A stretch of DNA of 64,000 nucleotides from Phycisphaeraceae bacterium (lineage in GTDB: Bacteria; Planctomycetota; Phycisphaerae; Phycisphaerales; SM1A02), in contig JAHBWY010000004.1 in the NCBI GenBank assembly GCA_019636735.1, forward strand, positions 248,001-312,000, read 5' to 3'. The translations under genes and the position numbers were made by a program. Below, piece after piece: positions 31,449-37,930 of the stretch. Under the pieces are notes generated by a model. The model saw only the letters and a list, made by a program, of their open reading frames with translations, did not search any database and was not told the origin of the DNA. Numbering within the stretch: the stretch's first letter is position 1; every line of letters starts with the position of its first letter.

Positions 31449-32714
31449 ATGGCGGATACGAGCCTCATTGAAGTCAACCTTTCGAGCGTTGAGCACAACT
31501 TCGCGGTGATGCGCGACATGGTGGGCGAGGGATGCCTCCTCTGTCCCGTGGTGAAGGCCGACGCGTATGGCCTGGGCGCGGCGCGCCTGGCGAAGCGCAT
31601 GGCTGCCGCCGGTGCCGACATGTTCGCCGTCTTCAGTCCGGAGCAGGCGGCAGCGCTCTCGGCGACGGCGGTGGGCAAGCCGGTGCTTGTCCTGATGCCA
31701 GTGCGAGATTGCTCTCGCTCGGACGAATTGTACCGAATGCTCGTCTCCGGCTCGCTGCACCTGACGGTGCATGATCTCCATCACTTGGATCAACTGCGGC
31801 GCATCGCGGAGAAGTTCGCGGCGGTCGTTCCCGTCCACCTCGAGGTGGACACGGGCATGAGCCGCGGCGGGTGCTCGCCGGACGAGGCCGCGCTCGTGCT
31901 GAAGCGCATCGCAGCGTGCCGATGGCTGCGATTGGCGGGAGTCTTCACGCACTTCAGCAATCCGCGCTGCGATCCACTGCGCACGCGGGCGCAGATGGAT
32001 GCGTTCGATGCGCTCCTCGCCGCTCACTCCGCGTCGATTCCTTCCGAGTGCATCGTGCATGTCGCATCGAGCTACGCGGCGCTTCGACACCGCCGCTATC
32101 ACCGGAGCATGGTCCGCTTCGGCCTGGCGTGGACGGGCCTTGCGCTCGACGGCATCGAAAGCGGCGAGGTGCTCTGGGAGAGCGAGCAGCTCCGCCCGAT
32201 CGTCACCTGGCGGAGCCAGGTGAGCCAGATCAAGGTCGTTCCCGCCGGTGCTCCAGTGGGCTATGGCAGCCTGTGGAGGGCCGATCGAACCTCGCGCATC
32301 GGCCTGATTCCGGTGGGCTATGCCGACGGCTATCCAATCTGCCGCGAGGCTCGCGATCCGCGCGCCGTGCGTGTGCGAGCCCTCGGCCTCCGCGGCGCGA
32401 TCGAGGGTTGGGCGCCGGTCGTGGGCGCCGTGAACATGGACCAGGTGGCTGTCGATCTCACGGAGATCGACGGGCTCGCCGAGCTGCCCGAGGGCGGCGT
32501 CGGCGCCGAGGTTGAGCTCATTTCACCCGATCGCGATGCGCCGAATCACCTGCCGCGCGTCGCCGCGGCCGCGGGGCTCATTCCATATGAGTTCCTCTGT
32601 CGACTCGGGCCGCGCATTCGGCGCCAGTACATCGCCGACACGGTGCCCGCCTCCAGCGTCTCTGCGGTGAGCGCCGTGCCGGCGCCACGAGCGGCCGTCC
32701 AGCGCTCACCGTGA
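31449..32714 (+). CDS. alr: Alanine racemase
   Basis: 421 residues. A PLP enzyme supplying D-alanine for peptidoglycan. The PLP-binding Lys lies in PVVKADAYGLGA near the N-terminus and the second-domain catalytic Tyr in APVGYGSLWRADR; GVFTHFSNP, HVASSYAAL and VGAVNMDQVAVDLT are further family blocks. About 25 C-terminal residues (ASSVSAVSAVPAPRAAVQRSP) extend beyond the usual LCRLGPRIRRQY ending. A TCGAAT box is 11 bases before the ATG. Confidence 0.92.
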   Translation: MADTSLIEVNLSSVEHNFAVMRDMVGEGCLLCPVVKADAYGLGAARLAKRMAAAGADMFAVFSPEQAAALSATAVGKPVLVLMPVRDCSRSDELYRMLVSGSLHLTVHDLHHLDQLRRIAEKFAAVVPVHLEVDTGMSRGGCSPDEAALVLKRIAACRWLRLAGVFTHFSNPRCDPLRTRAQMDAFDALLAAHSASIPSECIVHVASSYAALRHRRYHRSMVRFGLAWTGLALDGIESGEVLWESEQLRPIVTWRSQVSQIKVVPAGAPVGYGSLWRADRTSRIGLIPVGYADGYPICREARDPRAVRVRALGLRGAIEGWAPVVGAVNMDQVAVDLTEIDGLAELPEGGVGAEVELISPDRDAPNHLPRVAAAAGLIPYEFLCRLGPRIRRQYIADTVPASSVSAVSAVPAPRAAVQRSP

Positions 32715-32965: not shown

Positions 32966-34141
32966 ATGCGCCATGAGTCGATCGTGATTGTCGGCGGTGG
33001 AGTGGCCGGGCCGGTGCTGGCCGCGCTCCTGGCACGACGCGGCCACCCGACGATGCTGGTCGAGCGTCGCCGCACCGGTGAGACGAAGTGCTGCGGGTGC
33101 TGCCTCGCGCCTCGAGGTGTCCGCCTGCTTCACAGCTTGGGCATGGAGGCGGCGCTCCAACGGGCCGATGGGGCGTGGACCCGCCGATGGACCATGCGGG
33201 ATCCCCACGGCGAAGTTCTTCTCTCGCAGTGCCTCGGCGCGGAACCGGGCATGGTGGTCGCGCGGGATCGCTTCGACCAGGCGCTGCGCGAGTTGGCGCG
33301 CAACTCCGGGGCCCGGTTGGTCGAGGGTTCCGGTGCGGTGGTGGCCCGCGATGGCGAAGTGCTCCTGCGGAGTGGTGCGGGCGAAGTCGTCGATCGCGTC
33401 AGAGCCTCGTGGATCATCGGCGCCGATGGCGTGGGCAGTGGCGTGGCACGCTCGGCGGGGCTCGGACCGACGCCCCGCGCCGAGACCGCAGGCGCGGCGA
33501 AGCGGATGCGCAGGCTCGGGTTTTCCTGGAGTCTTCCAGAGCAGGTGGCGGCGGCGATCGCGGTCGCGCCGGAAACGATCGACATTCATCTCGTGCAGGG
33601 CGGGTATCTCGGGCTTGTGCAGGGGGCGAGGCACCTGCACGCGGCGGCACTCGCTCCCTCCGGGCGCCCAATGTCGATGATCCGTCAGTGGGGTCGCCGA
33701 TCGGGGCGACTCGCGCCGCTCTCATCCGGCGAAGAGAGAGAGGCGATGGCCTCAGCGCACTCAACGAACATGCACGCGACCGGGCCGCTGCCCTGGCGAC
33801 CCCGAGCAACGGTGGGTGCGATCGCGGGCGTGCCGGTGGCGCTCGTCGGCGATGCCGCGGGATATGAACAGCCGTTCACCGGCGAGGGCATGACCTGGGC
33901 GCTCGACTCGGCGCGATTGCTCGCGAGGGCGATCGATCTGGAGCGTGACCTGCATGGAGCGCTGCAACGCTACGACCTCGACCATCGCCGCCACTTCGCA
34001 TGGCGCAAGCGACGACTTCGCGCGCTCGCGGCGATCGGCCTTTGGGCCTCCGAGTCGCAGGGTTGGCGTCGCAGCATTCGGCTGGCGGGGCGCGTTCCGA
34101 TGCTTACAGGCTCACTCGTGCGATCGGTGGTGGCGGCGTGA
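32966..34141 (+). CDS. FAD-dependent oxidoreductase (geranylgeranyl-reductase/monooxygenase type)
   Basis: 391 residues. N-terminal FAD-binding loop IVIVGGGVAGPVLAALLARRGHPTMLVER, a Cys-rich element KCCGCCLAPRGV where geranylgeranyl reductase-like enzymes have a CGxGL motif, the DG fingerprint WIIGADGVGSGVAR, and GD motif VALVGDAAGYEQPFTGEGM. It belongs to the p-hydroxybenzoate hydroxylase-like flavoprotein group. Its TGA overlaps the GTG start of the type III PKS gene (GTGA), so it very probably modifies the polyketide, for example by hydroxylating or reducing an alkylresorcinol or pyrone. The substrate is inferred from context only. Confidence 0.82.
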   Translation: MRHESIVIVGGGVAGPVLAALLARRGHPTMLVERRRTGETKCCGCCLAPRGVRLLHSLGMEAALQRADGAWTRRWTMRDPHGEVLLSQCLGAEPGMVVARDRFDQALRELARNSGARLVEGSGAVVARDGEVLLRSGAGEVVDRVRASWIIGADGVGSGVARSAGLGPTPRAETAGAAKRMRRLGFSWSLPEQVAAAIAVAPETIDIHLVQGGYLGLVQGARHLHAAALAPSGRPMSMIRQWGRRSGRLAPLSSGEEREAMASAHSTNMHATGPLPWRPRATVGAIAGVPVALVGDAAGYEQPFTGEGMTWALDSARLLARAIDLERDLHGALQRYDLDHRRHFAWRKRRLRALAAIGLWASESQGWRRSIRLAGRVPMLTGSLVRSVVAA

Positions 34142-35265
34142 CGATTCGTGAATTGACCGCTCCAGCCGTCACCCGCCGCGCTCACGCCGAGCCGGCACTG
34201 CCGCGAGCTGCCCCGAGACTGCTCGGCGTCGGGTCGACTCTCCCGGCGAGACGGGCCAGTCAATCGGAACTCTGCGAGGAGATCGGCTCGCTGCTCGAAC
34301 TCAGCGGCGCCGAACTCGCGCGATGGCAGCGCATCTGCCGTGGCAGCGGCGTCGACTTCCGTCACGCGGTGGCGCCGCTCGCCCAGGTCATTCGCAGCTC
34401 GACCGCGGAGCGCATGAGGCTCTTTGACGCCTCAGCGCCGGAACTCGCGGCGGGCGCTGCGAGGCAGGCACTGGTCGACGCCGGGGTCGAAGCGCACGAG
34501 GTCACCGACCTGGTCGTCGTGACCTGCACGGGATTCTCGGCGCCGGGTGTGCCGCGGCGGCTCATCGATCTCCTTGCGCTCAGGCCCTCGGTGCGCAGCA
34601 GCCAGGTGGGGTTCATGGGCTGTTTCGGCGGCATCTGCGGTCTTCGCGCCGCGGCGGCGCATGCGTCGGCGGAGCGAGGCGCGGTGGTGCTCCTGGTCTC
34701 AGTCGAGCTCTGCTCGCTCCACCTTCGCGCCGATCGAGATCCGCAGAATCTCGTCGCGAGCGCCCTCTTCTCCGATGGAGCCGCCGCCGCTGTGATCGTC
34801 GATGGCGAGGTGTGCACCGGTGGCACGGCGGATCGTCGCCAAGGTCGCTCCGCGCCAGCGTCGCTCCTTCCCGGGCGCTCGCACACCGTGGCGGGCACCC
34901 TCGATGCGATGGGATGGACCATCACCGACATGGGATTTGCGATGACGCTGGCGCGCGAGGTCCCTGATCGACTGCGGGAGGTTCTCCCTGACCTTGTCGA
35001 GTCGGCCCGTGAGGTGCTCATTCATCCGGGCGGGCCTTCGATCATCGATGCGGCGGCCGACTCGCTGCGTCCCGAGCAACGCGGCGCGACCGAAGTCAGC
35101 CGCGCCATCCTGCGCGAGATGGGCAACATGAGCTCGGCGTCGATTCTCTTCGTCCTCGAGCGCTGGCGGCGGCAGGGGGGAGTGGCACCGGCGTCGCTGG
35201 TCGCCTTCGGGCCCGGATTGACCATCGATTCGGTCATGCTGGTCGATGGTCTGACGCACCCATAG
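34138..35265 (+). CDS. Type III polyketide synthase (chalcone-synthase-like)
   Basis: 375 residues from the GTG at 34138, the usual family length. The Cys-His-Asn triad can be placed: Cys162 in VGFMGCFGGICGL, His296 in EVLIHPGGPSIID and Asn330 in EMGNMSSASILFVLE. Thiolase-fold landmarks VVTCTGFSAPGVP, ASALFSDGAAAAVIVDG and a C-terminal VAFGPGLTIDSVML are also present. Such enzymes condense malonyl-CoA units on an acyl-CoA starter to give alkylpyrones, alkylresorcinols or similar. No methyltransferase or acyl-ligase gene flanks the pair. Product unknown. Confidence 0.88.
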   Translation: MTIRELTAPAVTRRAHAEPALPRAAPRLLGVGSTLPARRASQSELCEEIGSLLELSGAELARWQRICRGSGVDFRHAVAPLAQVIRSSTAERMRLFDASAPELAAGAARQALVDAGVEAHEVTDLVVVTCTGFSAPGVPRRLIDLLALRPSVRSSQVGFMGCFGGICGLRAAAAHASAERGAVVLLVSVELCSLHLRADRDPQNLVASALFSDGAAAAVIVDGEVCTGGTADRRQGRSAPASLLPGRSHTVAGTLDAMGWTITDMGFAMTLAREVPDRLREVLPDLVESAREVLIHPGGPSIIDAAADSLRPEQRGATEVSRAILREMGNMSSASILFVLERWRRQGGVAPASLVAFGPGLTIDSVMLVDGLTHP

Positions 35266-35275
35266 GAACCGGATG

Positions 35276-35281
35276 TATCGT
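35276..35281 (+). promoter_or_regulatory. Candidate -10 box (TATCGT) for mqnA
   Basis: TATCGT ends nine bases before the ATG at 35291 and lies ten bases after the PKS stop, suggesting that mqnA has its own promoter. Confidence 0.4.
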
Positions 35282-35290
35282 TCCCGATCC

Positions 35291-36211
35291 ATGGCGTCTC
35301 TTTCCACCACTCCGTTCAGGCTCGGGGTCGTTCGATATCTGAACACGCTGCCGCTGATCCATGGGCTCGATCGTCTCCACGGACTTGAGCTGGTCCATGA
35401 TGTCCCCGCGCGTCTGATTGAACGGCTCGCCGCCGACGAAGTCGAGATGGCGCTCTGCTCGACGATCGACCTGTCGGCGGCGTCGCCAAGCTTCGAAGTG
35501 GTCCCCGTGGGATGTCTTGCGTGCCATGGCGAGACGCTGACGGTCCGTCTCTTTGCGCGGCGGCCCCTCCACGAAGTGCGCACCCTGCACGCCGATGCGG
35601 AGAGTCACACCTCGGTTGCGCTCGCGCGGATCCTTCTTCGCGAACTGCACGGGATCTCGCCCGAGATCGTGCCGTGGCGAGATGGCGATGGCGCTCCAGA
35701 GTGGTCGACCGTGGGCGATGCGCTCCTGCTCATTGGTGACAAGGCTGTCTTGCGGGCACCGCCCGAGTCGCACTTTCCGGTGCGCATGGATCTTGGTGAA
35801 GCGTGGGCTGCGCTCACCGGGCTTCCCTTCGTCTTCGCCATCTGGATGACGCGGGATCAGCGAAGCGCTGAGCAGGCGCAGCGGCGTCAGACCGTCGCCG
35901 CCATCCTTGATCATCAGCGGCGCCACAACCGAACGCGCATCGACTGGATTGCCTCGCGTCACGCCGCGGCGCGGGGCTGGGACGAGGCGCTCGCCCGGCG
36001 CTACCTCGGTGAACTTCTCGACTTCGAGTTCACCGCACGGCATCAGCAGGGGCTCGAACGATTCCTCTCACTCGCCGCGCAGCATGGGGTGATTCCTTCG
36101 ACGCCGAAGGTGCGTGTGGCGGCGGAGCGTGCCGAGGCGCGCGCCTTCACCTCGGGTTTGCTCGACAAGGCCAATGGGACGACGAGCGCGCATCCCGCGG
36201 GAGTGCACTGA
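35291..36211 (+). CDS. mqnA: MqnA, chorismate dehydratase (futalosine menaquinone pathway)
   Basis: 306 residues from ATG at 35291 (an ATG at 35273 is in frame but lies before the -10 box). MqnA converts chorismate to 3-[(1-carboxyvinyl)oxy]benzoate, the first step of the futalosine route to menaquinone. The periplasmic-binding-like fold shows GVVRYLNTLPLIHGLD, DEVEMALCSTIDL, LLLIGDKAVLRAP and MDLGEAWAALTGLPFVFAIWM, all typical. No mqnB/C/D lies nearby. It is followed three bases later by a gene of unknown function. Confidence 0.88.
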   Translation: MASLSTTPFRLGVVRYLNTLPLIHGLDRLHGLELVHDVPARLIERLAADEVEMALCSTIDLSAASPSFEVVPVGCLACHGETLTVRLFARRPLHEVRTLHADAESHTSVALARILLRELHGISPEIVPWRDGDGAPEWSTVGDALLLIGDKAVLRAPPESHFPVRMDLGEAWAALTGLPFVFAIWMTRDQRSAEQAQRRQTVAAILDHQRRHNRTRIDWIASRHAAARGWDEALARRYLGELLDFEFTARHQQGLERFLSLAAQHGVIPSTPKVRVAAERAEARAFTSGLLDKANGTTSAHPAGVH

Positions 36212-36214
36212 ACA

Positions 36215-37930
36215 GTGCCGCGGCGCCCGCGCTTCCGAACGGCGGCGCTTCGGGAGCTCTTCGAGGGTCTGCGCTATGCCCCCGACGAGACGCGGCGTCG
36301 CCAGATGGAGGCGGCGGAGGCGCTGGCATTCGACATCGAGCCGATCTCGCTTCTTGAGCGAGGCGAGATCGTCCGTCGCATCACGGGATTCCGGCCCGAG
36401 GCGCGCGACGACGAGCCATCGCTGGTGGGTCAGGCGGTGCTCGCCGATCTCACGACACTCATCGAGCGGCTCAGCGAGGATCTCGGGCTTCGCGCGTCCG
36501 ATCGACCGGGTGGCGCGGTCACTCTCGTCGAAGCCGCCGAGCGACTCGGCGTCTCGCAGCGATCGCTCCTTCGCTGCCGTGAGGTGGGACTGCTGGTCCA
36601 CTGGATCGACTTCGCCGAAGCGCCATCATTCGCGGGCGCGGCCCGTGCGGCCGGTGCGGGAGAGTCCGCGAGCGAGCACCGCCGAGTCGGCTGCTATGTC
36701 TCGCTCCTCGATCGCTTTCGTGAGAAACGACTTCACCTCGTCCCGAAGGCGCGGCCGCGCCGAGGCGCGCCCGACGCCGAGATGCGGCGCGAGATCCTGA
36801 AGGAGGCCGCTCGCCTCACGGAGCGCGAGCGGAGAGAAGGGCGAGCGCTCACGCTTCATCGTGCGACGGGCCTCGTGGCCGATGCGTGCGGTCGCGATCG
36901 TCTCTCGGTGCGCCGAGTCCTCGCCGAGAGCGACTTCGACTTCGCCAAAGCGCGAAAGCGCTCGCTCGATGAGACCCGACTGGCCTATCGCGCCTGGCGG
37001 CGCGGCGTCGATCCCGCACAGATCGCACGACGGCTGGGGCGCGATCACGCCGCGTGCTGGCGGGCGATCAACTCGGGGCGCCGGGCAGCCCTTCGATCGG
37101 CATCGATTCCGACGGCACCTGAACTGCCGCTCTTTACACATCCGCAGGCGGCCGAGGTGCTGCTTGCGCCGCGCGAAGTGCAGGGGGGCCTGCATGCGAC
37201 GCCGGAGCCGAGGACCGCGCTTGAGTTTCTCGAGGCGCATGCGCCGGCCGCACTGCCGCCGAAATCGGGCGATCCGCAGGCATGCCGGCGTCTGGTGGCG
37301 ATGCGCTTTCTCCTGTGGCGGGCTCGACGCTCGCTGATGTCGCTTCGGGGCTCGCCGACCGGTGGTGAGCTCGACGAGATCGAGACCGACCTTCGCAACG
37401 CCTGGCTGCTCCGCCGCACGCTGTTGGCTTTTGCCCTGCCGCTCGTTCTCGCCCGAGCCGAGGCGGCGCTGGGCGGTAGACTGCCGCAGCTTCCATCGCG
37501 CCAGCTTGTTCGCGCCATCAGCCGAAGTGTGCGTCTCACCGCCTCGGCCCTCGATTCAGCCGATGGCGTCGAAGCCGCGGAAGGACGACTGCGCGTTGCG
37601 CGGCATGCCGCGCTCATCATCGATCGGGATATGGCCGCCTCGCCGCCGCCTGCGCTTGATCGCCGAGCCGCAGCCGTGCACACGGGCATGGCCACGCCGC
37701 TTCCCGACATCGACCTCCTCGCGTCTCCGTGGGTCTTGCTCCTCCCTCATCGATTTCCGCCTGCAGGCTCGGCGGCCCCGTCACCTCTGATTGAGTGTCG
37801 CTTCGGTTGGACGGGACACCTTGCCCTCACGCTCGCAGAGCAAGCGAGGCAGGAGCGCCTCGCACCCTCGCTCCTTCAGCATCGACTCAGCGAAGCGTTG
37901 GCGCAACACCGCCGGGCGAATCTCGCCTGA
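36215..37930 (+). CDS. Unknown protein with helix-turn-helix-like segments
   Basis: 571 residues, GTG start three bases after mqnA. I do not recognise the family. Three helix-turn-helix-like segments can be picked out: about 102-126 (TLVEAAERLGVSQRSLLRCREVG), 214-238 (ATGLVADACGRDRLSVRRVL) and 264-290 (VDPAQIARRLGRDHAACWRAI). The 380-475 region is helical and arginine-rich (RNAWLLRRTLLAFALPLVLARAEAAL), loosely like a sigma-70 region 2 but without a clear match. No signal peptide or membrane segment. It may be a DNA-binding regulator or sigma-like factor; this is inference. Confidence 0.55.
   Translation: MPRRPRFRTAALRELFEGLRYAPDETRRRQMEAAEALAFDIEPISLLERGEIVRRITGFRPEARDDEPSLVGQAVLADLTTLIERLSEDLGLRASDRPGGAVTLVEAAERLGVSQRSLLRCREVGLLVHWIDFAEAPSFAGAARAAGAGESASEHRRVGCYVSLLDRFREKRLHLVPKARPRRGAPDAEMRREILKEAARLTERERREGRALTLHRATGLVADACGRDRLSVRRVLAESDFDFAKARKRSLDETRLAYRAWRRGVDPAQIARRLGRDHAACWRAINSGRRAALRSASIPTAPELPLFTHPQAAEVLLAPREVQGGLHATPEPRTALEFLEAHAPAALPPKSGDPQACRRLVAMRFLLWRARRSLMSLRGSPTGGELDEIETDLRNAWLLRRTLLAFALPLVLARAEAALGGRLPQLPSRQLVRAISRSVRLTASALDSADGVEAAEGRLRVARHAALIIDRDMAASPPPALDRRAAAVHTGMATPLPDIDLLASPWVLLLPHRFPPAGSAAPSPLIECRFGWTGHLALTLAEQARQERLAPSLLQHRLSEALAQHRRANLA

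Follow-up and report, generated by a model that had tools for sequence, protein, structure and literature searches.

The closest described systems are planctomycete and cyanobacterial operons that combine a type III polyketide synthase (PKS) with an FAD-dependent oxidoreductase and a methyltransferase. According to the portion of Milke et al. 2024 covered here (PMC10896814), 58 of the 96 type III PKS genes of planctomycetes are the last gene of an operon that resembles cyanobacterial hidABC, in the order methyltransferase, oxidoreductase, PKS. PKSs from such operons produced pentadecyl- and heptadecylresorcinols in C. glutamicum; for two tested PKSs from outside the three-gene operon and its variants, no product was detected. 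The methyltransferase and FAD enzyme of G. maris gave a C-methyl product with no hydroxylation reported in that portion, and the role of the operon flavoprotein was left open, as was the natural role of planctomycete alkylresorcinols. The same portion states that the adjacent genes are conserved solely among close relatives and that hierridin B bears an added ring hydroxyl. It mentions a two-gene variant without the oxidoreductase, and no variant without the methyltransferase appears in the text covered. In Streptomyces srs and Myxococcus FtpA, the type III PKS product is oxidised to an alkylquinone (PMC10896814, same portion), an outcome that the locus studied here might share.

We analysed a window of 64,000 nucleotides from a Phycisphaeraceae bacterium that contains a two-gene version of this arrangement. 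The features of the locus are as follows.

31449 to 32714, + strand: alanine racemase, the upstream flank of a conserved site (TIGR00492, 1.7e-70)
32966 to 34141, + strand: FAD-dependent oxidoreductase with the fold of group A flavoprotein monooxygenases, 391 aa (open reading frame; PF01494, 1.3e-18)
34138 to 34141, + strand: GTGA stop/start overlap of the FAD gene and the PKS gene (read from the sequence)
34138 to 35265, + strand: type III PKS of the PKSa clade, 375 aa, GTG start (PF00195/PF02797)
35273 to 36211, + strand: mqnA-like menaquinone (futalosine pathway) gene, start codon uncertain (PF02621, 4.2e-45)
36215 to 37930, + strand: conserved 571-aa protein, the downstream flank, with no Pfam, NCBIfam or PHROGs match

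The TGA stop of the FAD gene (34139-34141) and the GTG start of the PKS gene (34138) share the tetranucleotide GTGA. Past the 571-aa protein lie opposite-strand genes that we take to be those for ribosomal proteins S9 and L13. No RNA element reached gathering scores between 31000 and 38600, and PHROGs profiles gave no useful match. A sequence-only reading had placed the two-gene cassette at 32966-35265 and assigned the PKS the triad Cys162/His296/Asn330; both open reading frames lie there, on the + strand, the residue numbering was right, and its family assignments agree with the profile matches (Chal_sti_synt_N and Chal_sti_synt_C at 7.6e-25 and 2.4e-15 for the PKS; FAD_binding_3 at 1.3e-18 for the oxidoreductase).

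To place the window PKS among its relatives, we compared it with those of 181 genomes of the same family. A match was found in 107 genomes, of which 103 were classified. The matches in G173, G174 and G265 are fragments and were left out of the classification, and that in G293 (3.4e-6) was taken as a non-type III PKS; all four are counted among the genomes with no assigned type. By type, 41 genomes had PKSa and 61 had PKSb (hid-type), and 78 had no assigned type, including the three whose fragments stayed unclassified. Of at least 397 confirmed places in the contig scan, the best 80 were retained. We annotated 121 loci (120 and the window) and split them by profiles, with gene counts likewise taken from profile annotation, into 42 PKSa loci (41 of the window's family, the remaining one, L061, belonging to a different family in the same order) and 79 PKSb loci. 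The latter count includes two divergent loci, L263 (the second gene of G125) and L264 (of G209), which form a group that we otherwise treated separately.

PKSa is a separate lineage. In a tree of 101 PKSs, built like our other trees by a quick search with SH-aLRT support only, the 40 PKSa rows clustered in a single clade (SH-aLRT, 99), separate from the group with cyanobacterial, Gimesia and Bacteroidota enzymes; nearest to it was the clade that joins the hid-type and Bacteroidota-type enzymes. Four cyanobacterial loci (L130, L132, L134 and L135) fell in the hid-type clade, with PKSa outside it; HidC of Cyanobium was absent from the tree. The two divergent type III PKSs, L263 and L264, paired with each other (support, 100) and belonged neither to PKSa nor to the hid type. 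In searches where only the matches named here were typed individually, three genomes beyond the window's family, G096, G343 and G473, proved to have PKSa, and all three belong to the same second family (400 genomes of the order); a match of in-between score, G347, was hid-type; the best match outside the order, G639, was nearer the hid type and had a methyltransferase (392 genomes of the phylum). As the scores of divergent PKSa members drop to the level of the hid type, rare members may occur outside the order.

The sequence-only reading had named absence of the pairing in relatives as grounds for refutation, and the gene-order comparison instead shows the pairing to be strongly conserved. The FAD gene lies directly upstream of the PKS gene in all 36 PKSa loci whose upstream sequence is 1.2 kb or longer and in 38 of 42 overall, the other four ending within 64 bases upstream. 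All 38 pairs with both genes readable overlap by four bases in the PKS frame, as ATGA in 28 and GTGA in 10, so the overlap noted in the window exceeds chance; 67 of 75 PKSb loci overlap by ATGA, GTGA or TTGA. PKS and FAD distances correlated closely across 37 pairs (r = 0.951; none of 2,000 permutations as high), as is expected from joint vertical inheritance. Methyltransferase genes separate the two types: none was annotated near PKSa in 42 loci, including the 32 whose upstream sequence reaches 2.5 kb, versus 70 of the 71 PKSb loci with that much sequence (sole exception, L263).

The position of the pair is also conserved. By annotation flags, 35 of the 42 PKSa loci occupy one site, flanked by the alanine racemase, the 571-aa protein or both; the site was not shown by five loci of genus g3, by L061 or by L207 (at a contig start). 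The racemase was detected at 26 loci and the mqnA-like gene at 19. For comparison, we examined 40 corresponding sites in relatives without the pair there, 34 of which were informative (L291, L305, L273, L285, L288 and L300 were left out); 33 of these span the alanine racemase to S9, and L271 has no racemase match. These sites were chosen for lacking the pair, so the absence of the PKS is a product of selection and the absence of the FAD gene is a result: no lone FAD gene was present at any of the 34. Two of the 34, G308 and G311, have the pair elsewhere. By the pairing, the overlap, the distance correlation, the site data and the absence of lone FAD genes, the pair behaves as a unit, which supports the earlier proposal of a functional unit of flavoprotein and alkylresorcinol-type PKS. 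In G343, of another family, the pair (L330) shares this neighbourhood but lies on its other side, immediately past the genes for ribosomal S9 and L13 and the CAAX protease.

The window pair thus has the FAD gene upstream, as in hid-type operons, but has no operon methyltransferase, and its PKS lies outside the clade of the hid loci. It shares with the planctomycete operon related enzymes and the position of the FAD oxidoreductase gene immediately before the type III PKS gene, those operon members that were tested giving long-chain alkylresorcinols; it differs in the missing operon methyltransferase, the separate PKS clade, an F/Y in place of H after the catalytic cysteine and a mostly fixed chromosomal site (PMC10896814, in the portion covered, for the operon). 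With hidABC, the hierridin system, it has in common the three enzyme families and, in the usual arrangement, the order FAD then PKS; hidA is adjacent there, whereas the window genome has an unlinked HidA-family gene, and the window PKS is outside the hid-loci clade. Among the papers listed from open-licence PMC, we recognised none that described a methyltransferase-less FAD-PKS pair or an assay of a PKSa enzyme. To our knowledge, no PKSa enzyme has been assayed.

We consider it somewhat probable that the FAD-PKS pair is a co-translated unit for a phenolic lipid, namely, a long-chain alkylresorcinol that undergoes ring hydroxylation and perhaps methylation by an unlinked enzyme. The PKS would extend a fatty acyl starter with malonyl-CoA and cyclise the chain, the likeliest product being a 5-alkylresorcinol; the flavoprotein would then hydroxylate the resorcinol ring to an alkyl-hydroquinone, oxidisable to an alkylquinone, and an unlinked HidA-family methyltransferase may methylate the product. 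The window system would thereby amount to a hid pathway with dispersed genes, on a separate PKS/FAD lineage. The resorcinol step is proposed because planctomycete enzymes of the sort that give alkylresorcinols in C. glutamicum (PMC10896814, portion covered) belong to the hid-type clade next to PKSa, and the hydroxylation because of the FAD_binding_3 domain and an aromatic-hydroxylase-like fold. The "undescribed aromatic lipid" of the sequence-only reading stands in part: the general system is already known (PMC10896814, same portion), but a new product is possible, given that PKSa is distinct and that no assay was recognised among the papers listed. As a two-gene unit whose overlap persists in all pairs examined, this clade would allow the PKS-flavoprotein step to be tested without the methyltransferase.

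The flavoprotein has the fold of group A flavoprotein monooxygenases, and from its model we predict aromatic hydroxylation. Its AlphaFold model (mean pLDDT, 82) was nearest to structures of kynurenine 3-monooxygenase in a fold search of the PDB; other aromatic hydroxylases, tetracycline destructases and the halogenase PltA followed lower down. The group A FAD-binding motifs (GxGxxG, DG and GD) are present, with G10, G15, D154-G155 and G295-D296 invariant and G12 nearly so among 20 aligned sequences. Sequence searches pointed elsewhere: the best NCBIfam model was the geranylgeranyl reductase family TIGR02032, at 95.9 bits below its cutoff of 158.8, and the best PDB sequence match was the digeranylgeranylglycerophospholipid reductase 3oz2. 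The enzyme could thus be a reductase that saturates the acyl chain or reduces a ring intermediate, or a halogenase that chlorinates; a K-x-CG-x-C motif is conserved, and PltA is among the fold neighbours. We regard this as unlikely, as aromatic hydroxylases lead the fold ranking and hierridin B carries an added ring hydroxyl (PMC10896814, portion covered).

By its domains and triad, the window PKS is a type III polyketide synthase, for which malonyl-CoA condensation is predicted. PF00195 and PF02797 scored 88.1 and 57.3 bits, both above the 27-bit cutoff, and C162, H296 and N330 were invariant in an alignment of 19 PKSa sequences. The 3,5-dihydroxyphenylacetyl-CoA synthase DpgA was considered as an identity and rejected, as the window PKS scored 123 bits against a curated cutoff of 425. 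In a fold search with the AlphaFold model (mean pLDDT, 85), the top PDB match was PKS11 of M. tuberculosis, followed by other type III PKSs, with PKS18 within the first ten. The window PKS shares with these mycobacterial enzymes the fold, the triad and small residues at acyl-tunnel positions, although identity over the fold alignments is only about 26 to 30%. Specifically, T131, A/S135 and C192 align with T144, A148 and C205 of PKS18, residues that line its acyl tunnel, and the argument for such a tunnel depends on this alignment; PDB entry 1tee is titled as the C205F mutant of PKS18.

These matches also raise the alternative that the PKS makes an alkylpyrone or another non-resorcinol product, which the flavoprotein then modifies. 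PKS11, the top match, is titled as a methyl-branched alkylpyrone enzyme, and PKS18 is among the first ten. Residue 163, which follows the catalytic cysteine, is F or Y in all 39 PKSa sequences, whereas 87 of the 88 hid-type sequences have H there, which suggests that the PKSa product may differ. No alkylresorcinol came from the two planctomycete PKSs that lie outside the three-gene operon (PMC10896814, portion covered). On the other hand, plant stilbene and chalcone synthases score almost equally in the fold search, which therefore does not discriminate between products, and the nearest clade is the hid-type plus Bacteroidota-type group, the planctomycete operon PKSs having given resorcinols in the same source. 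An alkylpyrone or other non-resorcinol product seems to us unlikely, and we retain the alkylresorcinol as the likeliest product.

The sequence-only reading had also stated that no methyltransferase is present. This holds locally, at all 42 PKSa loci, but not for the genome: the operon methyltransferase profile found a 297-aa relative on contig C10 of the window genome, starting at base 76069. We searched 58 genomes (43 PKSa and 15 PKS-less, several of the latter small; hid-type genomes and G473 were left out) and obtained HidA-family matches in 40 of 43 PKSa genomes versus 1 of 15 PKS-less genomes (P = 9 × 10−10 by genome and 6 × 10−8 by genus [by Fisher tests], the genus-level test counting genus g147 on both sides). 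The PKSa genomes with no match in this search were G321 (same genus, 88% complete), G201 (86%) and G237 (76%). In a tree of 59 methyltransferases, 21 unlinked copies grouped apart from the operon methyltransferases (node, 93); they represent 19 PKSa genomes and a single PKS-less genome. A core of 17 copies (node, 96), including that of the window genome, came entirely from PKSa genomes, and the copies of PKS-less G264, of PKSa G221 and G316 and one of the two in G252 fell outside it. Because the copies of most PKSa genomes are untyped, the figure of 40 of 43 mixes core and outer copies.

As an unlinked HidA-family gene tracks the pair in this way, the lack of a nearby methyltransferase gene does not imply a pathway without methylation. 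The class of system is the known one of the hid operons; the branch with no methyltransferase beside the pair differs from it and may rely on an enzyme from another locus of the genome, so that gene-cluster searches alone can misread the pathway as shorter than it is. For the srs system, which has a flavoprotein partner too, the methyltransferase is inside the operon. In several PKSa genomes, the unlinked gene stands alone between opposite-strand genes. That of the window genome adjoins ketoacyl-synthase and acyltransferase genes to which it could belong, making its link to the PKS less sure there. This neighbourhood (L329, 2-12147 of C10) holds a ketoacyl synthase, LpxL-like and PlsC-like acyltransferases, a GT2 and a polysaccharide deacetylase beside the methyltransferase, a gene set that presumably resembles aryl-polyene-type lipid clusters, and an LPMO with a CBM2 lies just downstream.

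The absence of a nearby methyltransferase from all 42 PKSa loci would also fit a decaying hid operon from which that gene was merely lost. We find this very improbable: the clade is deep, the catalytic residues are invariant, the overlap persists in 38 of 38 pairs and 35 of 42 loci share one site, and a methyltransferase group is present elsewhere in most PKSa genomes.

The two PKS types do not overlap in their distribution. Among the classified genomes of the 181, none held both PKSa and PKSb, with the proviso that incomplete genomes can conceal a second PKS copy. Four genera hold both types, in different species, and within genera 7.0 co-occurrences were expected and 0 observed (P = 4 × 10−6, treating species as independent). 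This suggests that the products are interchangeable or incompatible; if the former, the lipids themselves should prove interchangeable. Going further than the reading of the pair as a phenolic-lipid unit, we tentatively suggest that it may represent a second phenolic-lipid pathway of separate origin. Such a pathway would be an FAD-PKS unit, co-translated and passed on vertically within a row of housekeeping genes, with its methyltransferase dispersed, that excludes the hid operon from each genome because the membrane lipids are interchangeable or incompatible and that possibly makes another ring product by way of residue 163.

The mqnA-like gene is apparently a neighbour that the pair does not need. 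An SD-like AGGAA overlaps the PKS stop codon ahead of its ATG at 35273. In the 181 genomes, PF02621 was found in 103 and MenD above cutoff in 62, with none on both lists, and the complex I subunit NuoH was found in 164. The location of the pair beside mqnA could be read as a sign that it makes a respiratory quinone in place of menaquinone, given that mqnA begins 7 bases downstream of the PKS gene if its start is 35273, that 15 of 41 PKSa genomes lack PF02621 and that polyketide quinones carry electrons in M. tuberculosis (PMC10896814, portion covered); yet 10 of those 15 genomes have MenD, the menaquinone genes of the other five (67 to 92% complete) could sit in the missing parts, and many genomes that lack the pair still have mqnA at this site, so that the distributions of MenD and PF02621 together with this retention largely reject the replacement, which we consider highly improbable. 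An auxiliary role for the product as a redox lipid is possible.

The futalosine route (PF02621) and the classical route (MenD) to menaquinone, which share no genome in the family, both occur inside genera g147 and g3. The 571-aa protein, which has no family match, lies between mqnA and the ribosomal genes at 33 of the 42 PKSa loci and at 32 of the 34 informative sites without the pair.
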